A stretch of 26,731 bases of DNA, taken from a virus. The stretch is taken from positions 1 to 26,731 of IMG/VR virus record IMGVR_UViG_3300042874_000217; one strand, given 5' to 3'. The notes beneath the pieces are model-generated. The model searched no databases. It worked only from the letters and a program-made list of their open reading frames with translations, and was not told the DNA's origin. The translations under genes and the position numbers were made by a program. Below, piece by piece: positions 2,204 through 26,400 of this stretch (its first letter is position 1; each line of letters begins with the position of its first letter).

Positions 2204-4783
2204 TCAAAAAAACGACAAAAGATCATTTATTTTTTCAGGCTTCCACTTGATAATGTCCAGAATGATCATCAGAGGATGTCTAAAGGTTTTCTCGAATTGA
2301 GTCTTCCTGTCAATAACGGACTCCGAGAGTTTCAAAGACTCTGGCAATCGGTTCGGCAAAGAAATGATATTAGACTGAAAAGTATTCGGCAGCTTCAGAT
2401 AGAAGAACTTAACCTTGTCTCCTGATTTGATCAGAGGAAATGTCGGATCAACTTCCTTGATTTTCTTATTAAATACAACTGATCCTCGAACGGCAATTGG
2501 AATTCCTTTCATCATCCGTCCTTGGGAGTCAAGGTACTTCTCAATGTCAGAAACGGAACGAGGCATTGCAATGTCCAGAACATGGGCTGAATTGAACTCT
2601 TTCTCAAAAGAAAGGATGAACTCTTGAAGGTCTTCCTCAGTTTTCTCCAGGATTATCTTCATAGCTTTCTTAAAAGCTTCTCGGCAAATCTCAGGAGTTG
2701 AGGACCGAACAGCATCAAGCCCTGTCACCTTGAGCTTCGGTTCTTTCATCCTGACTCCTTCATCGTCCATAACGGCCATGAAGTATCTTTTCTTAGCAAC
2801 AATAACAGTATTAGAGGCAATCTTCTCCCTCTTCATCTTCCATTCCATTGCATAACAATTCAGATAATCCGCAAGTTCACTATAAGATTTATTGATGAAT
2901 GGCTGAATTTTTTCTTCTGAAATCTTATCCAAAAGAGAACAAACCTCATCATTTGATTTATTAGGAAAGAATTTACGCACAATCGGTCCAAATCTTAAAA
3001 AAACCGAGTCTGTATCAGATGCGGATACAACCTCTTCATTTATTCCCATAGAAGCAAAATACTCATTAAACTTTCTCGCAATGAAGGTAATAGCAACCTG
3101 ACCAATTGATGTTATCGCCTCAGCTGTTCTTGAATCATAGAAGATGAAAGCCGAATTCGCAAGAGCTCCGTATTCGGAATTCATCATAATTTTTAGGCCA
3201 AGCTGAATGTTGTGAAGTCTTGAAATTTCGTTTTTGTGGTTCAGTGTTTTGTCATTTTCTTCCTCTTGTTTTAAACGGAGCTCTTCCTTTTTCCTTATAG
3301 ATCTTTCACTATAAATGTCTTTAAGGATTGCGGGCATAAAACCGAGAGAGTCTCTTTTGAAGAATTGCAAATTAGGAGTCATACAAACATCGTACTTTTT
3401 CAAAAGAGAAAGATCAAACTCCTTTCGTGAAAGCATTTCCACGGTATTTTCGACCTTAAATCCAGAAGCTCTGGAAATGCTTTCCCTTAAGTCAAGAAGA
3501 TCCTGAGGAAGTTCATCATCTTCCAAAATCTTATCAGGAGAAATATTGGCGCCCATTTGATTGTGTGGATAAAGTGACGCAAGGTCGAAAGTTACAATCC
3601 ATGAATGAAATCCGAGTTGAGGATCTTTGACATATCCACCGATAATACTTGAATCATCACCATCATCAATGTTGTTGACCATTGGAGGAACTGTGTAATT
3701 GTTCATCAATGCACGGTAAGCATAAAACGTCCACATTTTTACAGTTCCTAAAGCATCCTGAAAGTTAACACCTGCTTTATAAGCAATGTTTACACAGAGG
3801 TCAATCAGCTTTAGTTTATCATCAAGCCTCTTAACAAGCAAAGAGTCCTTTACGTTATACTTGGCGAACTTAATGAAGTCCCTTTCATAAAGATCATCAA
3901 GGTCAATCATTTCAGAATAGTCCTCTTTCGTCTCCTTGAGTTCACAATACGCAATATTATTCAATGTGTAATTGTCACGGGTAACGTATGTGAATTTTTT
4001 ATAAAGAGAAAGGTAATCAAGGATCTGAATCCCTATTATATTAAATGTTTGTTGTTCATTGCCGAACTTGTCTCTGATATTCCTCTCTTGGATCTTCTTG
4101 AAAGGAGACAACAGATTCGGATCAAGACCTAAGTTAGAGACCCTGTTGATCGTGTAAGGAATATCATAAGTTTCAATATTCCATCCGGAGAGAATATCAA
4201 CATCACCAGTTCTTACAAGCTTCATGAAATCCAGAAGCATTTCTTTTTCAGTCATGAACCAATGGAAGTCAATGTTAAACTCTTGACAAAACGAATCAGG
4301 AAGATCTTTAGTCGCCCAGAAGTGGATCTTGTCTTTATAAACGAATGATATTGAAATAATTGGATTTAATGCTTCCCGAGCGGTGGAGTAGCCTGTGACA
4401 GGATCCTTTGCTGTTTCTATATCAAAGAACCCAGGGATAACAAGATCGTTCCTAGGCGAATCCTTGAACTCCTCGTAAATATATTGATACTCAAGCTTTG
4501 AAGTGCCGTAAAGCTTATGACCGTATTCAAGGACTGCTTTCGTCTTGTTCTGGAACTCTTTTATTGAATCAGCGGTCATTTCCTTAAGAGGATGTCCCTT
4601 GATATCCTTATAGCCTGTTTCTTTGGTATCTTTAGAGGGAGTGAAAAACCGAAACGGATAATCCTTAAAGACCTTGAACTCTCTTTGTTTAGTCTCCTGG
4701 TTTATCTCCTTTGAACAAATAGAACCTCTGTACTTTACGACTGACAAATATTGTTTAGGCAAGATTACTCTCCTTTGATACAT
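2204..4783 (-). CDS. 43: Family-B DNA polymerase (T4 gp43-like)
   Basis: Replicative DNA polymerase with 3'-5' proofreading. All hallmark motifs are visible: Exo I FDIETA (about residue 120), Exo II GWNIETYDIPY (about 200), Exo III YNVKDSLLV (about 310), Pol A DLASLYPHN (about 400), Pol B KIMMNSEYGALAN (about 530) and Pol C SDTDSVF (about 590) with its two metal-binding Asp. Length 859 aa, close to T4 gp43 (898). The C-terminus INDLLSFF is a hydrophobic tail of the kind that docks on the sliding clamp gp45, which is also encoded here. ATG 4783 (MYQRRVILP) was chosen over a TTG seven codons upstream; it overlaps the HD gene by 19 nt. A consensus-like promoter lies inside that gene at 4858-4886. 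In T4 this gene follows regA directly; here about 11 kb intervene. Confidence 0.97.
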   Translation of the reverse strand: MYQRRVILPKQYLSVVKYRGSICSKEINQETKQREFKVFKDYPFRFFTPSKDTKETGYKDIKGHPLKEMTADSIKEFQNKTKAVLEYGHKLYGTSKLEYQYIYEEFKDSPRNDLVIPGFFDIETAKDPVTGYSTAREALNPIISISFVYKDKIHFWATKDLPDSFCQEFNIDFHWFMTEKEMLLDFMKLVRTGDVDILSGWNIETYDIPYTINRVSNLGLDPNLLSPFKKIQERNIRDKFGNEQQTFNIIGIQILDYLSLYKKFTYVTRDNYTLNNIAYCELKETKEDYSEMIDLDDLYERDFIKFAKYNVKDSLLVKRLDDKLKLIDLCVNIAYKAGVNFQDALGTVKMWTFYAYRALMNNYTVPPMVNNIDDGDDSSIIGGYVKDPQLGFHSWIVTFDLASLYPHNQMGANISPDKILEDDELPQDLLDLRESISRASGFKVENTVEMLSRKEFDLSLLKKYDVCMTPNLQFFKRDSLGFMPAILKDIYSERSIRKKEELRLKQEEENDKTLNHKNEISRLHNIQLGLKIMMNSEYGALANSAFIFYDSRTAEAITSIGQVAITFIARKFNEYFASMGINEEVVSASDTDSVFLRFGPIVRKFFPNKSNDEVCSLLDKISEEKIQPFINKSYSELADYLNCYAMEWKMKREKIASNTVIVAKKRYFMAVMDDEGVRMKEPKLKVTGLDAVRSSTPEICREAFKKAMKIILEKTEEDLQEFILSFEKEFNSAHVLDIAMPRSVSDIEKYLDSQGRMMKGIPIAVRGSVVFNKKIKEVDPTFPLIKSGDKVKFFYLKLPNTFQSNIISLPNRLPESLKLSESVIDRKTQFEKTFRHPLMIILDIIKWKPEKINDLLSFF

Positions 4784-5353: not shown

Positions 5354-7642
5354 TCAATCCTCGATAAAAGTTTCAAGTAAAGACGGTTCTGATAGTTCGG
5401 AAAGATTTTTAACAGCTACATTAAAATATGATTCTTTTAACTCAGAGCCGACAAAACGCCTTTTCATTCTTAAAGAGCACCATCCTTCAGAACCAATTCC
5501 TGCAAAAGGAGAATAAACAAGATCACCTGGATTCGTCCAAAGATCCAAGCATCTCTCAATAACGTCTAATTGTAATGGGCAAATGTGCTTCTCGTCTTTG
5601 CCTTCCCTAGCAATTTTGTAATTCAGAGTCCTTGTCTGACGGATATCGAACCAAACAGGAGAAGCATATCGTTGCCAAACATGATGAGAATACTTGTTCA
5701 CTGAATGATTATCATTTTTATCAAAAGCCGGTTCATCCATTTCTCCGATATATTCTTCGAATCCTCTTCCTTTTGCAACGGGCTCTGAATTAATTCCAGG
5801 CTTTCTCATCGTAATAACATAATCCGGAAGACCTTGACCGCACCTTGAAGAATCCTTAGAAATTTGTTTGTGTTGAAGATTTAATGCCTTTGTTCTTACT
5901 GCTTGGATTAAAGGGTCCTTCCATATACAAACTTCTGAATGAAATATAAAACCAGCTTTTTGAAATATTCTGATTAGATCACCTCGGAGATCTTTAATTC
6001 CAATATATCCATCTTTGTATATAACAGCCGGAAGATTCATGACATGAAAAGAAAGAAGACGACCGGGCATCAAAGATCGATACAATCCTGAAACAAGAAA
6101 ATCAAAATGTTTAAAAAATTCATCTTCATTTTTACAATTACCCATGTCTCTTGTTGAGTTAGAGTATGTAAAAAGAGAAGAAAAAGGAGGAGAAAAGAGC
6201 ATGTAATGAATAGAATTTTCTTCGAATCGTTTAACAGTCTCTATACAATCCTCGTTGTAAAGAACCCAGGAATCATCAGATTTACTTACTTCTTTTTTCG
6301 GTATATAATCATTACGTTCTCGTGTCGCTTGTTTGATTTCAACCTTTGAAATTTCAGAAACATTTTTTGTCATGTTAGTAACCATCTCCGTGAATTGTTT
6401 TTCTTTTCTCTTGATATTCTTGACCACGTTTCCTTCAAGCTCATGTGTTATTATATGGACGTTTACTATTTCTGTTTGGCCGAAACGATAACAACGACGA
6501 ACAGCTTGATAAAGGGCTTCGAAAGAATCCGAAAGACCGATAAAAATAATATTATGACAATTCTGCCAGTTCATTCCCCAGCCAGCAATCTTGGGTTTTG
6601 AACATAATGCTTTATGCTTTCCTAAAGTAAAACCTAGCATTCTGTTTATTTTATCTTCGTCAGAATCAGAACCGGTTACTTCTTGAACTTCTTTAATCTC
6701 CTTCGAAATTCTCTGAGACTCTTCGTTCATTTCGCACCAAATTAGCCACTGTTCATCAGAGTTTTCAACAAGTTCTTTTGCTATTTTGATCTTATCTGAA
6801 AGAGAGGTCTTTCTTATATCTCTTCTTTCTTCAAGAGTATTAGCGGCAACAGGAAAAAGAGTACCAGCAAGAACATCAGATGCAGGAATCACATGAGAAA
6901 TATAATTAATTCCTGGTAAAACAAATCCTTTATCCTCGTAACCGATATCTGACGGAAACTGAATCATTACTGCCCATGAACATATCCACTGCCAGAATTC
7001 ATTCTCGGCGTGTTTCTTTAGTCTCCATGTTCCGGTATTCGCTGTATCATTGATGAAAAAAGTAGAAAGCATTTCCAATCTAGTGCAGATTCCGAGAAAT
7101 TCAGCTTGATTTCCTATCTCTTCATAATCATTAGGTGCAGGAGTAGCAGAACAAGAAAGCTTATAAGGAACTATTGCCCAGCTTTCGCACATATCTGTCT
7201 TGAATTTTCCTGTGAATGATTTCATTATACCGGATTCATCCACGACAATTCCCGAGAAAGCCGAAGGATCGAACTTATGAACTTTTTCGTAATTTGTTAT
7301 ATTAATCCCAGGTTTTATATCATCCATTGAAGAAGCAATGTTTACGGCGTAACCGAATTTTGAACCCTCTTGTCTAGTTTGCTTTGATACTGCCAAGGGA
7401 GCAAAAATGAGAACGTTTCCGCCCGTGAAAATATGAACCTGTTTTGCGAATTCAAGTTGCTGGATCGTTTTTCCTAATCCGCATCCTTCAAACAATGCTG
7501 ATCTTCCTTTTCTGCATGACCAATTTACTATATCTTGCTGCCAATCATAAAGCAGAGGATTTATGTCTTTTGCTTTAAATCCGTGATCTTTGTAAATAAT
7601 TTCTTTTGATGAAAGAAATTTCTGATAATCCTCTTGATTCAT
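5354..7642 (-). CDS. SNF2-like helicase / DNA methyltransferase fusion
   Basis: A 762-aa two-domain protein. N-terminal SF2/SNF2 ATPase: Walker A EGCGLGKT (52-59), motif II VVDESG (133-138), motif III SCSATPAPN (163-171), motif VI QAVRRCYRFGQ (379-389). C-terminal DNA amino-methyltransferase from about 455: catalytic motif IV SPPF (484-487) comes before the AdoMet-binding motif YSPFAGIGSEGW (about 715), the order of class beta enzymes. SPPF fits N4-cytosine or N6-adenine methylation. Phage helicase-methylase fusions such as P1 DarB are known and protect phage DNA from host restriction; that role is inferred here. There is no nuclease domain, so it is not a complete restriction enzyme. ATG 7642 follows a CAGGAG site; a promoter lies at 7698-7726. 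The HD and polymerase genes follow. Confidence 0.93.
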   Translation of the reverse strand: MNQEDYQKFLSSKEIIYKDHGFKAKDINPLLYDWQQDIVNWSCRKGRSALFEGCGLGKTIQQLEFAKQVHIFTGGNVLIFAPLAVSKQTRQEGSKFGYAVNIASSMDDIKPGINITNYEKVHKFDPSAFSGIVVDESGIMKSFTGKFKTDMCESWAIVPYKLSCSATPAPNDYEEIGNQAEFLGICTRLEMLSTFFINDTANTGTWRLKKHAENEFWQWICSWAVMIQFPSDIGYEDKGFVLPGINYISHVIPASDVLAGTLFPVAANTLEERRDIRKTSLSDKIKIAKELVENSDEQWLIWCEMNEESQRISKEIKEVQEVTGSDSDEDKINRMLGFTLGKHKALCSKPKIAGWGMNWQNCHNIIFIGLSDSFEALYQAVRRCYRFGQTEIVNVHIITHELEGNVVKNIKRKEKQFTEMVTNMTKNVSEISKVEIKQATRERNDYIPKKEVSKSDDSWVLYNEDCIETVKRFEENSIHYMLFSPPFSSLFTYSNSTRDMGNCKNEDEFFKHFDFLVSGLYRSLMPGRLLSFHVMNLPAVIYKDGYIGIKDLRGDLIRIFQKAGFIFHSEVCIWKDPLIQAVRTKALNLQHKQISKDSSRCGQGLPDYVITMRKPGINSEPVAKGRGFEEYIGEMDEPAFDKNDNHSVNKYSHHVWQRYASPVWFDIRQTRTLNYKIAREGKDEKHICPLQLDVIERCLDLWTNPGDLVYSPFAGIGSEGWCSLRMKRRFVGSELKESYFNVAVKNLSELSEPSLLETFIED

Positions 7643-10441: not shown

Positions 10442-10517
10442 TGGAGCCGGATCCCGGAATCGGACCGAGGACATTCTGCTTACAAGGCAGAGGCTCTACC
10501 GACTGAGCTAATCCGGC
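10442..10517 (-). tRNA. tRNA-Thr (anticodon TGT)
   Basis: A complete 76-nt cloverleaf: acceptor GCCGGAT/ATCCGGC (7 bp perfect), D-arm GCTC-AGTCGGTA-GAGC, anticodon arm TCTGC-CTTGTAA-GCAGA with anticodon TGT, T-arm CTCGG-TCCGATT-CCGGG, discriminator T and an encoded CCA. It would read ACA (and possibly other ACN) codons. The T-loop has C in place of the usual second T. Confidence 0.95.
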
Positions 10518-10530
10518 GTTATCTTTAAAT

Positions 10531-10618
10531 TGGTGGAGACCCGTGGATTCGAACCACGAACATTTTTTCAGTACCGCCGGGTTACAGCCGGGTGCCTTAG
10601 CCGTTCAGCCAAATCTCC
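10531..10618 (-). tRNA. tRNA-Tyr (anticodon GTA)
   Basis: An 88-nt class II tRNA with encoded CCA: acceptor GGAGATT/GGTCTCC (two G-T pairs), anticodon loop CTGTAAC with anticodon GTA, long variable arm of about 18 nt typical of bacterial tRNA-Tyr, T-arm CGTGG-TTCGAAT-CCACG. It is 13 nt upstream of tRNA-Thr in the same direction, so the two are probably cut from one precursor. Confidence 0.95.
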
Positions 10619-11398: not shown

Positions 11399-11896
11399 TC
11401 AGGTGTCAAATTCCCAACCATCTAATGAATTTAAACTCACATCAGGCGAGAACCAATCAACTTTAAAATCCAAAAAGTCTGGGAAGTCTTCGGCAAAATC
11501 TGAAAAACAAAATTGCTCCCCTCCTGGCATCCAGAAATCCTCATACAAATAAAGTTGGAGCATTTCAATTGCCCAAATTTGTCTTGCGGATATATTAATT
11601 CCTTTCATTCCATTCATCATTTCTTCAATTATAAAATCATATTGTGCTTGATCTAATAAAGCAACAATTTGAATATCGCCCGCAACAAATCTCATAAGAG
11701 GACCGCTATAATTACAATCAGTCCCTAAATCTTTCGAAAGGGTTTTTGATATTTCTTCAATATCCGGATGTACCCATTTTTCACGAAAATTATTTTTAAA
11801 AATTATTAACGGTTCTACAAATTCAATTGATTCAATTGATTCAATTGATTCAATTGATTCAATTGATTTAATTGATTTAATTGATTTAATTGACAT
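11399..11896 (-). CDS. Hypothetical protein, 165 aa, with N-terminal SIK/SIE repeats
   Basis: The first 25 residues are a tripeptide repeat (MSIKSIKSIKSIE...), encoded by a 9-nt tandem repeat. The rest is an acidic globular-looking domain with many aromatics (CFSDFAEDFPDFLDFKVDWF near the end). Because the repeat unit is a multiple of 3, gain or loss of units would lengthen or shorten the N-terminus without breaking the frame. GGGAG lies upstream of the ATG. The body is not a family I recognise; the start could lie after the repeat only if a non-ATG codon were used. Confidence 0.65.
   Translation of the reverse strand: MSIKSIKSIKSIESIESIESIESIEFVEPLIIFKNNFREKWVHPDIEEISKTLSKDLGTDCNYSGPLMRFVAGDIQIVALLDQAQYDFIIEEMMNGMKGINISARQIWAIEMLQLYLYEDFWMPGGEQFCFSDFAEDFPDFLDFKVDWFSPDVSLNSLDGWEFDT
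11824..11892 (-). repeat. 9-nt tandem repeat (TCAATTGAT type) in coding sequence
   Basis: About seven to eight near-perfect copies of a 9-bp unit. Five are TCAATTGAT and the last three (nearest the gene start) carry T for C (TTAATTGAT), giving SIE versus SIK. The unit is itself nearly palindromic (CAATTG). Not a CRISPR: there are no spacers. Confidence 0.9.
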
Positions 11897-23062: not shown

Positions 23063-24004
23063 TCAAATACTCTTTGAAATAACTTTAAACTCGAATTTTT
23101 CAGCTTTATAAATGTTGAATCTTTCCGCGAAATGAAGCAATGCATAATTTTGTTTCAGGTTTCCCTTTCTTGTCTTGTATGACAAATCATCAACAACATC
23201 ATACCAAACAACACCGTCTTTGTTTTCATTCTTTCTAAGGCCACGGCCTATAGCCTGGAGGATCTTTATCTTGCTTTTATAAGGAGCAGCTGAAACAACG
23301 TTATGGATGTTCCGAATATTCATCCCGGTCGCACAGGTTCCATATGAGGCTACCAAGATAACATTATCATTCACCTCCATTATTCCTCGGGTTTCTTCTC
23401 TTATATCTGCCTCAGTCTCACCGGAGATATAAAGGATTGTTTTTCCTAATTTATGCTTTTCATTCATTTCTTTCATCTTATTATACAAAACTTTTCCGTG
23501 GCGGTCAACAAAATTAAACAAAACAAGTGAATTATTTTTTAAGGAAAGAATTAATCCGATAAGATTGTTCATCCTGCTTTTGTGCGAAATGATATAATCA
23601 ATCTCGGTCTGATAACCGTTTCCTCCATTTCTCTTCTTTGCATTAATGACCTTTGCTAAGTTAACGGACTCTTCTTCAGGGTATTTGAATATAACACACT
23701 TAACGAGCAACTGGGTTATTATTCCCATGTCCATTAGTTCTTTTGTTTCTATTACTCTTTTTTCTGCTCCAAAATGTCCTAGGATAACAAGTTGATGACA
23801 TTTAGCGTCTTGTAACGTCCCAGTGAATCCGTAGCGGATATGAGCATTTACCGATGATTCCATTATCTTTGACATTTGGCTAGCTGCGGCCAAATGACAA
23901 TTTGAAACAACAACCCCGTTTGCCACATAATTGTGATTTTTTTTGATATGAAGATTATACACGGCATTCGGTTTTTCTATTTTTTTTATCGATTTTATGA
24001 ACAT
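23063..24004 (-). CDS. uvsW: UvsW helicase C-terminal half with C-intein
   Basis: The second half of a fractured uvsW. Residues 1-35 (MFIKSIKKIEKPNAVYNLHI...VVVSN) are a C-intein. The extein begins at Cys36 with CHLAAASQMSK, which continues the T4 UvsW DECHLATGKS box. Following helicase motifs are YGFTGTL (motif III), IVASYGTCATGMNIRN-type motif V (here ILVASYGTCATG) and QAIGRGLRKNENK (motif VI). 278 extein residues. It starts at ATG 24004 because AAGGAG lies 10 nt upstream, inside the end of the endonuclease gene, which it overlaps by 50 nt; a start 45 nt further up has no such site. After trans-splicing with the N half it would give a UvsW of about 528 aa (T4: 503), a helicase that remodels branched DNA and R-loops. 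Confidence 0.93.
   Translation of the reverse strand: MFIKSIKKIEKPNAVYNLHIKKNHNYVANGVVVSNCHLAAASQMSKIMESSVNAHIRYGFTGTLQDAKCHQLVILGHFGAEKRVIETKELMDMGIITQLLVKCVIFKYPEEESVNLAKVINAKKRNGGNGYQTEIDYIISHKSRMNNLIGLILSLKNNSLVLFNFVDRHGKVLYNKMKEMNEKHKLGKTILYISGETEADIREETRGIMEVNDNVILVASYGTCATGMNIRNIHNVVSAAPYKSKIKILQAIGRGLRKNENKDGVVWYDVVDDLSYKTRKGNLKQNYALLHFAERFNIYKAEKFEFKVISKSI
23480..23508 (-). promoter_or_regulatory. Possible intragenic promoter in uvsW C half
   Basis: Minus strand TTGACC, 17-nt spacer, TATAAT within uvsW coding sequence, about 620 nt upstream of gp55. The match is good, but the bases also encode a helicase segment (VDRHGKVLYNK), so it may be coincidence. Confidence 0.3.
23900..24004 (-). 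other. C-intein (35 aa) of split UvsW intein
   Basis: Contains block F (VYNLHIKKNHNYVANG) and block G (VVVSN followed by Cys). The terminal Asn and the +1 Cys are the residues needed for cleavage and splicing. The residue before Asn is Ser rather than His, as in DnaE-type split inteins. Length matches known split C-inteins (35-40 aa). Confidence 0.92.
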
Positions 24005-24956
24005 ATCTACCAAACTCCTTGTATTTTTTATTTTTGAACTCTTCGTCATAATTTAACGAAGATATTCTTTCACGATTTTCTAAAAACCACATTTCATTCA
24101 CTAAAACGAAAGTGTATCCGTTCTGTTCGCACCACTTTTCTGCTGCTAAAAATTTAGATTTTGCTTTTTTATAAAGAGTTAGAGGCTTTATCTCTATTAA
24201 TTTTTTATTAACATGATCAACGAAATCAACTATATAAATATGTGATTTATTGTCTTTTTCTATATATTTTATTCGTATCGTTTCATATTCCAAAGAATAA
24301 TCATTTTCACATAAAAGATAATATAATAATTCCCAAGAAGATCTAAATTTTTTATTATCATAAAAATATTTTTTTGCATGTGTCAATCTATTATTTGTAT
24401 TTGGGGTGAAAGATCCATCATAAATCTTTCCCTTCATCGCTTCTGATTGTTTTTTCTTATGATCGTCTGAATGATGTTTACCAAACATAGGATTTCCTGC
24501 GCCCATTCTATCTTCAGAAAACTTTTTCATTTTTTCATTATTATTTTTATTCAATCCTTTTGTTTTATTTTTAACTCTTTCATCTTCTTCAACTGTCAAT
24601 CCTTTATTCCAAGGTTTCTTTCCCTTTGGATACCCTTCTTTTTTTGACTTTTCATGAAAAGATTGAGCTCCAATAATTGCCACTTCTTTTTTTATATTTT
24701 GTTTTGCTTTTTTTACTATATTTTCGTCATTGCTTAATAATTCGTTTAAGTATTTTTTTGTTATTGGACCACCGTTTATTACCGACAACATTTCGCTACT
24801 TTTGAGTTTTCTTCCGTTAGAAAGAACATACAATCCTGATTCGTTTCTTACTACAAATATAGATGTTAAATTTAATAAAATGCCATTGTATTTTTGTATT
24901 GTTTTCAAAGATTTCTTTTCATAAATCTTTTTAGAATGTTCAGCGGTTCGTTTCAT
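23955..24956 (-). CDS. Free-standing homing endonuclease between split-intein halves
   Basis: 333 aa, starting at ATG 24956 with AAAGGA 9 nt upstream (a TTG three codons earlier is less likely). Basic, with NUMOD3-like DNA-binding repeats (GKKPWNKGLT, about 112; GAGNPMFGKHHSDDHKKKQSEA, about 155-176). A C-terminal nuclease domain follows (about 200-300): FRSSWELLYYLL, IYIVDFVD and LIEIKP, an E...D...ExK pattern of the PD-(D/E)XK/Vsr-like superfamily used by the endonucleases found in fractured phage genes. It would cut intein-less uvsW and so spread the inserted cassette. The last 50 nt overlap the C-intein gene and contain its ribosome site. More AT-rich than its neighbours, as expected for a mobile gene. 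Confidence 0.88.
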   Translation of the reverse strand: MKRTAEHSKKIYEKKSLKTIQKYNGILLNLTSIFVVRNESGLYVLSNGRKLKSSEMLSVINGGPITKKYLNELLSNDENIVKKAKQNIKKEVAIIGAQSFHEKSKKEGYPKGKKPWNKGLTVEEDERVKNKTKGLNKNNNEKMKKFSEDRMGAGNPMFGKHHSDDHKKKQSEAMKGKIYDGSFTPNTNNRLTHAKKYFYDNKKFRSSWELLYYLLCENDYSLEYETIRIKYIEKDNKSHIYIVDFVDHVNKKLIEIKPLTLYKKAKSKFLAAEKWCEQNGYTFVLVNEMWFLENRERISSLNYDEEFKNKKYKEFGRYVHKIDKKNRKTECRV

Positions 24957-25007
24957 ATGATTCAATCCTTTATTTTTATAGCATACGGTTAATGAACTTA
25001 TGTTTCT

Positions 25008-26060
25008 TTATATACTATTTATACAATCAAGGATTTCATCGTTTGTATTTAATTCGTCCGCTCTTACATATCCTCTTTTTGTTAAAATTTTATGATTTCC
25101 AGTTATTTTTAAAATATTTCCATTTTCAAATTCAATCTCATACATATCATCATTTTTTGACATTTCTAAATTTTTATATACATCAACAACTTCATCCTCT
25201 TCAAATTTATTGTCATTAATATTATAGCTGATTATTTTTTCTCCTATACAAATATCTGATATTTTTTTATGACCTGCCGCGGTTTTTATAATAGTGTCTC
25301 CATCTAAACACTCATCCGCTATAACTATGTTGAATTGTTCAAAATAAGAAGGTTTCATGGTCTGCATTGATTGCCAGGTGGAAATGATAATACTTTTTTC
25401 TGTGTCTTTTTCTTGACCTGAGTATATCTTATGACAGTTCGCTTCAACGTTAAAAGAATTCTCGGATGAATAATCCTCGAAGTCTGAATACATCTGAAGA
25501 ACCAATGAAACTGTTGGAACGATCAGAAGAACTTTTATCCCATCTTCCTGATTCTCATTGAGGAACCATCTAAGGATTGAATAAATGATCAAAGATTTGC
25601 CAGAGGACGTAGGTGAAGAAACGGTAACCCGCTTGTGTTTGATACAATGATAAATCGCTTCCTTCTGGTGAGGATGATGATCAATCTTTTGACCATGAGC
25701 ATGGACGTTAAGATCTTTCAGGAATGATTCAATTAAAGGAGGAGTTACTTCTGTTTCTGGGATTGGAGTCTCCAAGAGATATTCTTTGACATTGTATTTC
25801 CTCTCTTTAGCGAATGCTTTGAGATTAGAAAGGAGTCCTGCCGGAAGTGACTGGTTCATCAAGTTCAGGAGACGTTTCTTACCATCCCATTTCTTCGCCT
25901 TGAAAGCTGGCATGAATTGATAACCAGGAACTGGGAACGTAAAATGCTCATGGACTTCCATAAGAATGGATCTTTCGGCTATCAGCTGAATATAAGAAGC
26001 GTTTAGCGTCACATAATAGATTTCATCAGGTTCTAAGTTCTCAAACGGATTCTCGTCCAA
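25008..26060 (-). CDS. uvsW: UvsW helicase N-terminal half with N-intein
   Basis: The first half of a fractured uvsW, 350 aa. Residues 1-250 are helicase: the N-terminal double-strand-binding region with FKAKKWDGKKRLLN (T4: RFRYGNWDGRIRLLD), Walker A SSPTSSGKS (148-156), motif Ia LIVPTVSLVLQM and IISTWQSM, ending at IVIADE, the first two residues of the DECH box. At residue 251 the sequence changes to CLDGDTIIKT, an N-intein that runs 100 aa to the stop. The start is TTG 26060 with AAAGGAGAG upstream, overlapping the radical-SAM gene by 20 nt. Alone it lacks motifs II-VI and should have no helicase activity. Confidence 0.93.
   Translation of the reverse strand: MDENPFENLEPDEIYYVTLNASYIQLIAERSILMEVHEHFTFPVPGYQFMPAFKAKKWDGKKRLLNLMNQSLPAGLLSNLKAFAKERKYNVKEYLLETPIPETEVTPPLIESFLKDLNVHAHGQKIDHHPHQKEAIYHCIKHKRVTVSSPTSSGKSLIIYSILRWFLNENQEDGIKVLLIVPTVSLVLQMYSDFEDYSSENSFNVEANCHKIYSGQEKDTEKSIIISTWQSMQTMKPSYFEQFNIVIADECLDGDTIIKTAAGHKKISDICIGEKIISYNINDNKFEEDEVVDVYKNLEMSKNDDMYEIEFENGNILKITGNHKILTKRGYVRADELNTNDEILDCINSI
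25011..25310 (-). other. N-intein (100 aa) of split UvsW intein
   Basis: Block A CLDGDTIIKT carries the nucleophilic Cys1. Block B has the TxxH motif in LKITGNHKILTKRGYVRADEL. The 100-residue length is typical of a split Hint N part with no endonuclease insert. Insertion point: between Glu and Cys of the DECH Walker B box. Confidence 0.93.
25016..25023 (-). promoter_or_regulatory. Candidate T4-type late promoter ahead of homing endonuclease
   Basis: An exact TATAAATA on the minus strand at the last codons of the N-intein, 60 nt upstream of the endonuclease ATG. T4 homing endonucleases such as I-TevI use such late promoters, and this phage encodes gp55 and gp45 to read them. In DNA this AT-rich a few exact matches are expected by chance. 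Confidence 0.4.
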
Positions 26061-26400
26061 TGTATCTCTCCTTTTGTTTTAAACTTTCTTTGTACTTCTT
26101 ATATTCCTTGTTTTTCCTCAATCCTTTGATACAATCGCTTTCTCTATATTCTTTTGTATTCAGCATATCAAGCCAGAAAGCCTCTATTCCCGAGACAACA
26201 TTGCCAATCTTAGGAGAATCCGAGCAACCGCAAAGATGGATATTTCCAGAAGGCTTTATGAACAAATCAGAACAAACACAATTTTTAGTGTTCCAGTATC
26301 CGTTTTTCTTAGCTCTTCCTTGGGCGATTATATTTTCTTGGTCGCGGGAAACGTTCCTAATCTCGTAATAATGCGCTTGGGTTTTTGCACGGCGTTCCAA
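26041..26400 (-). CDS. Radical-SAM protein, C-terminal fragment (frameshifted)
   Basis: Reads HYYEIRNVSRDQENIIAQGRAKKNG, then the Cys cluster NCVCSDLFIKPSGNIHLCGCSD, a SPASM-like auxiliary cluster region that normally follows the radical-SAM barrel, and a Lys-rich tail. It lies in the -1 frame relative to the fragment upstream and overlaps it by 73 nt. There is no ribosome site near its possible TTG start at 26400, so it is best read as the continuation of the same gene after a one-base loss. It overlaps the uvsW start by 20 nt. Confidence 0.65.
   Translation of the reverse strand: MERRAKTQAHYYEIRNVSRDQENIIAQGRAKKNGYWNTKNCVCSDLFIKPSGNIHLCGCSDSPKIGNVVSGIEAFWLDMLNTKEYRESDCIKGLRKNKEYKKYKESLKQKERYIGRESV

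Follow-up and report, generated by a model that had tools for sequence, protein, structure and literature searches.

A uvsW gene split inside its DECH box

Can a helicase gene that is cut in two inside the DECH box still give rise to one helicase? This question is raised by the uvsW locus of IMG/VR virus record IMGVR_UViG_3300042874_000217, the 26,731 nucleotides of which were analysed at full length and are referred to here as the window. Analysis of the sequence leads us to propose, with a probability of about 0.9, that the two products of this fractured gene are joined by a split intein, that trans-splicing restores the helicase, and that a nuclease encoded between the halves drives the homing of the intein block. 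The locus consists of three open reading frames on the minus strand, from 26060 to 23063 of the window, with the following parts.

26068..26073, minus strand: Shine-Dalgarno-like AAGGAG, 7 nucleotides ahead of the left-gene TTG, read by eye
25008..26060, minus strand: left gene, from the TTG start at 26060 to the stop codon at 25008-25010
25311..26060, minus strand: UvsW N-extein, 250 amino acids, ending in VIADE at T4 UvsW residue 233 (UvsW_N, ResIII, DEAD; PDB 1RIF/2OCA)
25011..25310, minus strand: N-intein, 100 amino acids, with Cys1 and TGNH in block B (Intein_splicing, intein_Nterm, alignment)
24966..24970, minus strand: Shine-Dalgarno-like AAGGA, 9 nucleotides ahead of the endonuclease ATG, read by eye
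23955..24956, minus strand: endonuclease gene, 333 amino acids from ATG 24956, TTG 24965 being a possible start (Pfam, alignment, model, fold)
24015..24020, minus strand: Shine-Dalgarno-like AAGGAG, 10 nucleotides ahead of the right-gene ATG, read by eye
23900..24004, minus strand: C-intein, 35 amino acids, ending in VVVSN (intein_Cterm, alignment), the first 50 nucleotides overlapping the endonuclease gene
23063..23899, minus strand: UvsW C-extein, 278 amino acids, starting CHLAAASQ at T4 UvsW residue 234, stop codon included (Helicase_C; PDB 2OCA)

An initial annotation of the locus had placed the cut inside the DECH box, exactly between E and C, and expected a spliced product of about 528 amino acids. 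Both statements held. The N-extein and the C-extein match T4 UvsW in the PDB with E-values of 9e-31 and 7.3e-37, respectively, aligning end to end with the break exactly at residues 233/234. Since no residue of T4 UvsW is missing or duplicated where the exteins meet, the joined product of 250 + 278 = 528 amino acids is in the exact register of T4 UvsW, with the UvsW_N, DEAD and Helicase_C domains present in that register. In Pfam, the left gene matches UvsW_N (1.9e-17), DEAD (3.6e-16), Intein_splicing (7.4e-9) and ResIII, and the right gene matches Helicase_C (1.1e-5) and, below the threshold, Intein_splicing (8.5e-6).

The same annotation had described an N-intein with Cys1 and a TxxH motif following VIADE, and a C-intein ending in VSN ahead of CHLAAASQ. 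Profile searches recovered both halves above the TIGR cut-offs, with E-values of 1.8e-8 for intein_Nterm (TIGR01445) and 7e-7 for intein_Cterm (TIGR01443). The residues of a class 1 intein are all present, namely Cys1, TGNH in block B, the terminal Asn and the native Cys at +1. Each of the three genes was also found to have the ribosome site ascribed to it, an AAGGA(G) 7-10 nucleotides upstream of the start. ATG 24004 is the most likely start of the right gene, a longer alternative from 24049 being possible. Read from ATG 24004, the right gene shares its first 50 nucleotides with the 3' end of the endonuclease gene, in a different frame.

In the mechanism that we propose, the helicase-N::N-intein and C-intein::helicase-C polypeptides would be translated separately from their own ribosome sites; the intein halves would then come together and trans-splice, so that E is linked to C, the DECH box is made whole and a single helicase of about 528 amino acids results. 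The intervening nuclease would most likely target uvsW alleles that lack the intein, cutting them at the DECH codons or close by, and repair of the cut allele would copy in the whole block of N-intein, endonuclease gene and C-intein. The naturally split inteins thus gain a compact pair of 100 + 35 amino acids, inserted where this repair helicase has its motor motif.

The endonuclease between the halves

The separate gene between the halves had been predicted to encode a NUMOD/PD-(D/E)XK-like endonuclease, and its product indeed matches NUMOD3 (7e-6) and, above the cut-off, TnsA-like_N (2.5e-8). Vsr-like endonucleases had been named only for fractured genes known earlier; the window nuclease, of the PD-(D/E)XK type, has a nuclease domain closer to TnsA than to Vsr. 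In a predicted structure with a predicted local distance difference test score of 86, the nuclease domain aligned with TnsA at Z 9.2 (root-mean-square deviation 3.4 over 129 residues), compared with Z 7.2 for Vsr and Z 7.0 for I-Bth0305I, the fold being common to both. By Pfam and the structural aligner, the modelled nuclease domain is thus closest to TnsA.

The predicted active-site residues of the window nuclease are E209, D244, E255 and K257; the E, D and E-x-K residues of TnsA-like nucleases have catalytic roles. Among 45 relatives of the nuclease, D244 and E255 are invariant and E209 and K257 occur in at least 90%. TnsA-like_N was found in 34 of these 45 family members and DUF559 in two, and the family profile has a weak match (0.0072) to the DNA-binding part of I-TevI. 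With this match, the NUMOD3 DNA-binding motif and the predicted nuclease domain, the product resembles a homing enzyme. Among the matches listed, the nuclease family is also found at the terminase large subunit genes of RB49-type coliphages. It further matches the T4 gp4-like 'head closure' proteins (phrog_218), and the TnsA-like fold may be common to the homing nuclease and a head-completion protein.

A family of inteins at one helicase motif

Whether uvsW at this site had been described before was a question that the initial annotation left open. The arrangement itself is already in public genomes and in PHROGs, and in the genome records consulted it is not named an intein. Ten phage records match across the helicase and the N-intein, eight of them Salmonella phages of the S16 type and two Proteus phage PM2; the S16, PM2 and SEA1 records have the identical three-gene order, annotated as helicase, hypothetical protein and helicase. 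Prevotella phage Lak-B4 has the split uvsW layout when TAG is read as Q, and the N-intein also has matches in three more Lak-B records. PHROG families 16259 and 9690, both consisting of such half genes, match across the intein halves. At the DNA level no phage record matched the window. A scan of genome contigs with the N-intein alignment confirmed no relatives outside phages, and a plasmid search returned 25 records, the 10 matches listed being at 35%. Our literature search found no paper joining 'split intein' and 'uvsW', which does not by itself show absence from print, and none linking Gelderlandvirus or S16 with an intein; the available passages from part of the papers that name both intein and uvsW describe no intein in uvsW.

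Three scans of IMG/VR gave 225 new loci, which were added to 124 found with the helicase itself. An N-intein start was present in 215 loci, and the 208 that had both halves and a readable N-intein were kept and merged, by crude position-by-position identity, to 134 non-redundant inteins (131 different ones, some redundancy being left). The counts that follow are lower bounds, since several scans kept the best 80 matches, and the family is larger than counted. Ninety-four of the 134 are split with an endonuclease of the window's nuclease family between the halves, 14 are split with a short gap and no endonuclease, and 11 are split with other content or a remnant; eight are one-piece mini-inteins and seven are larger one-piece inteins. 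The arrangement recurs in unrelated phages, and across phages of many habitats a single insertion site holds cis mini-inteins, split inteins with and without endonuclease, and larger one-piece inteins.

Every one of the 134 inteins begins with Cys. DE precedes it in 133, the exception being locus L131, which sits in NrdA of a Campylobacter phage. CH follows the intein in 132 as called, the exceptions being L131 again and L140, the reading of which was shifted by one residue. The E/C and SN/C junctions claimed for the window are both present, and SN is the commonest ending of the family (97 of 134), followed by AN (16), HN (9), KN (5), EN (4) and others (3). The family may therefore supply new split-intein tools, with SN/C, AN/C, KN/C and EN/C junctions to choose from. 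Of the 92 split loci measured for these features (94 less L337 and L211, the window included), 87 have an endonuclease gene whose 3' end runs into the start of the C-intein gene, and 61 have a C-intein of 35 amino acids.

The uninterrupted homologues of the window gene (n = 124) are divided equally between DECH and DEAH, 62 each, or 18 and 39 of 57 after crude removal of redundancy. All interrupted helicases have Cys at +1, the nucleophile required by splicing. The Pfam helicase domains differ among the scanned loci: UvsW_N in L224; ResIII/DEAD and Helicase_C in L208, L189, L282 and L278; and SNF2 in L286. In L267 (3325-6269), the same split intein is found at DE/CH of a Helicase_C_2 (DinG/XPD-like) helicase. 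The element thus crosses helicase families at one motif. The insertion site and the intein family of the window are both widely present in sequence data, and the window is a further example of a fractured gene.

The contents of the insertion site vary in several ways. In L251 (664-5117), 4.3 kb between the halves carry tail-fibre-like genes (phrog_7809, 1.2e-10) and others, with no endonuclease found. Genes without a Pfam or PHROG match stand in the place of the endonuclease in L239 (3544-5117) and L224 (3784-5105), and L239 and L251 appear, by eye, to have one such gene in common. L337 (4497-5752) is split in another way, with the N-intein and the endonuclease in one frame and the C-intein separate. 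In L271 (602-1384), the nuclease class is swapped at the same site, the endonuclease being GIY-YIG with NUMOD3 (LEM-3_GIY-YIG, 2e-11).

Selection, mobility and alternative explanations

To assess selection on the parts of the element, the ratio of nonsynonymous to synonymous substitution rates (dN/dS) was computed from 21 pairs of related split loci in all, near-saturated pairs being dropped for each part. The values were 0.13 for the N-intein (16 pairs), 0.11 for the C-intein (15) and 0.19 for the endonuclease (14), compared with 0.19 for the N-extein (7) and 0.17 for the C-extein (5); all are rough, since the synonymous sites are far diverged (proportion of synonymous differences 0.53-0.63). 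By this measure, purifying selection acts on both intein halves and on the endonuclease across the family, which means that the halves are kept working in it. With regard to mobility, an intein identity of at least 0.58 goes together with an extein identity below 0.36 in 373 of 8778 pairs, and in L218 versus L285 the identities are 0.69 and 0.10, with different helicase families interrupted. Such pairs argue for movement of the intein between genes.

Several observations weigh against the proposed trans-splicing and homing. The penultimate residue of the window intein is Ser, and not the usual, though not obligatory, His of class 1 inteins. Arg replaces K257 of the nuclease in S16 and PM2. Foldseek gave no match to the nuclease at an E-value of 0.001 or better, returning TnsA at a probability of 0.97-0.99, so the likeness to TnsA comes from Pfam and the second structural aligner. 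The inteins nearest to that of the window are only about 60% identical to it, and the dN/dS values therefore speak for the family and not for the window copy. Intein and extein identities are correlated (0.67), and much of the spread may accordingly be vertical. A promoter scan was at chance (17 found versus 14.8 ± 3.3 in shuffled sequences). Finally, no second uvsW, which the annotation had named as a finding that would refute it, is present within the 26.7-kb record, but this record is a fragment and an intact uvsW may exist elsewhere in the phage. In favour of the proposal, the helicase match is single in all eight of the larger split-gene records, including the whole S16, PM2 and Lak-B4 records. 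A scan for a terminator brought by the endonuclease gene was, like the promoter scan, at chance level.

Three other explanations were considered. The best placed of them, although unlikely, is that the endonuclease is not the mover, and that another, SegE-like nuclease drives homing or ordinary phage recombination accounts for the spread. An annotated homing endonuclease lies directly upstream of the split uvsW in S16, uvsW is a listed target of T4 SegE in the part of the source available (PMC2988022), and the family often loses its endonuclease, the 14 short-gap loci without one being placed on the intein tree by 13 changes. Against this explanation, the endonuclease is under purifying selection (0.19), retains its predicted active-site residues and is found at an unchanged position in 94 of 134 loci.

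It is improbable that the halves do not splice at all and instead form a two-subunit helicase, or that the locus is a dead gene with intein remnants. The window copy has no relative close enough for a selection test of its own, which leaves some room for this explanation, but within the family purifying selection constrains the intein halves no less than the exteins, and the five aligned lineages all retain the catalytic Cys1, TGNH and terminal Asn. A permanent break inside the DECH box would also be expected to disable the ATPase. A single continuous intein with an internal endonuclease, seemingly split through frameshifts or an assembly error, is very improbable: the window is a single metagenomic contig and in L337 two of the parts do share one frame, but the three-gene order is found in the isolate genomes of S16, SEA1 and PM2 as well as in the 94 loci, start and ribosome site are separate for each gene, and most of the loci measured have a C-intein of the same length, 35 residues. 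As a separate candidate, a self-splicing RNA in place of the intein was rejected, Rfam at gathering thresholds giving two tRNAs only in the window.

Probable re-fusion of split inteins into one-piece mini-inteins

Comparison of the family sequences suggests that gene fracture by split inteins is probably reversible in phages, some mini-inteins descending from split ones. At least one relative, L189, has apparently shed the endonuclease and returned to being a single gene. Its intein (2935-3351; also in L190-L193) is a one-piece mini-intein, the linker of which corresponds to the tail of the lost endonuclease gene. The DNA of L189 is the same as that of the split loci L198 and L208 as far as AATCACGA, close to where the N-intein ends; it then resumes with the last 46 nucleotides ahead of the C-intein start, which are the end of the nuclease gene in L198 and L208. 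Local scores for this scar were 57 and 52, compared with maxima of 28 and 32 in 100 shuffles. In the nuclease frame, L189 reads SRFDNNTARKIKTLYETN followed by a stop codon, and L208 reads SRFDDNTARKIKALYETN followed by a stop codon; in the C-intein frame, the nuclease-tail stretch of L189 is an in-frame linker, with the old start Met kept at position -35. In L208 and L198, the sequence TCACGA borders the presumed deletion on either side, and short repeats typically flank deletions. The junction is identical in five contigs from five data sets and is thus not one faulty assembly. The tail of the endonuclease gene, kept as a DNA scar, indicates that a split intein was re-fused in L189.

The intein tree was built from 134 rows with few columns, and its root was not inferred. 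A starred branch (96) unites L189 with L198 and L208, both of them split, and the seven larger one-piece inteins lie on one side of a branch with a support of 85, not starred. The eight mini-inteins require eight changes on the tree (shuffled mean 7.9), at least five of which are forced by the starred branches alone. The mini-inteins are not a clade: holding all eight together was rejected, with a log-likelihood lower by 304 and an approximately unbiased p value of 7e-63, in a test on 90 of the 134 rows from which L131 and near copies were left out. In four of the eight (L189, L142, L258 and L233), a Met occupies exactly the position at which the nearest split C-inteins start, with P = 1.8e-5 at the observed Met frequency, a post hoc value, the Met positions having been seen beforehand. 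The seven larger one-piece inteins have no Met within 60 residues of the end.

Endonuclease scars in the DNA were sought in the eight cis mini-inteins and the 14 short-gap split loci. They were clear in the split loci L204, L200 and L137, and marginal or inconsistent in L138, L156 and L169. Two results count against the re-fusion reading. No scar rose above the shuffles in seven of the eight mini-inteins or in the remaining short-gap loci, and the tree gives no direction without a root, nor does the scatter of the mini-inteins among the split ones by itself. Besides L189, the case for descent of mini-inteins from split ones would be made by the retained Met in L142, L258 and L233 together with the tree.

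Because the endonuclease gene extends, in another frame, into the start of the C-intein, a deletion of the endonuclease may leave the N-intein ending in any of three frames, and loci corresponding to each are found. In L184, the N-intein runs into the last frame of the nuclease and the gene stays split; the nuclease-frame codons shared there are the same bases as the C-intein start and so provide no independent evidence. In L204 and L163, the N-intein frame stops at ATGA over the old start codon, and the gene again stays split. In L189, the N-intein is in the frame of the C-intein and the gene is re-fused.

The usual order of intein evolution leads from full-length inteins to mini-inteins and from these to split inteins. 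In the review passages available, mini-inteins are described as having arisen by loss of the endonuclease domain (PMC8966425), and split inteins by the splitting of mini-inteins (PMC10663303). A split intein turned into one piece with a scar was not found in those passages, in a search that was not exhaustive. If the re-fusion of L189 is real, some natural mini-inteins derive from split inteins, which is opposite to the usual account. The family makes both the origin and the reversal of split inteins testable by sequence and by splicing assays on pairs such as L189 and L208.

Comparison with known systems

The fractured genes reported by Dassa and co-workers in 2009 are said to be phage-dominated, with a conserved enzyme split by an intein and a free-standing endonuclease between the halves; a Vsr-related nuclease is reportedly present in about half of the loci and hence not obligatory. 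Like them, the window encodes each half of the enzyme in a gene of its own together with one half of the intein, and a free-standing endonuclease gene lies between the two. It differs in the site, DE/CH of UvsW and other superfamily 2 helicases, and in a nuclease that is nearer TnsA than Vsr. The uvsW loci of S16 (gp114, gp114.1 and gp115) and PM2 are interrupted at the same E/C site with the gene order of the window. The N-intein of the window is homologous to theirs (55% and 51%, respectively), as are the C-intein and the nuclease; the junction is HN/C in S16 and PM2 versus SN/C in the window, and their Arg stands opposite K257.

The PolB gene of Pseudomonas phage MIJ3, as described in the part of the source available (PMC6892783), has a split intein with an HNH endonuclease between the halves. 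Here too, intein halves flank an endonuclease gene in a phage replication gene, but both the interrupted gene and the nuclease class differ from those of the window. T4 SegE, from the passages cited above, resembles the window nuclease in linking a phage homing nuclease with uvsW, but is a GIY-YIG enzyme, free-standing outside the gene and without an intein. In I-Bth0305I and the EDxHD nucleases, as in the window, the nuclease domain is tethered to NUMOD-type DNA-binding parts according to the passages available (PMC3943268), although the structural match of the window nuclease is higher to TnsA than to I-Bth0305I.

Other features of the window

The genes neighbouring the fractured uvsW are T4-like and encode a late sigma factor, a gp45-type clamp, a gp44-type clamp loader and a family B polymerase. 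Adjacent genes for tRNA-Thr(tgt) and tRNA-Tyr(gta) are located at 10442-10618. At 5354-7642, a protein of 762 amino acids joins a helicase part (Helicase_C 8e-8, SNF2 7e-4) to an N6/N4 DNA methylase (2e-12). At 11821-11893, a nine-base tandem repeat occurs eight times in the start of a frame of 165 amino acids, giving rise to a Ser-Ile-Glu/Lys run.

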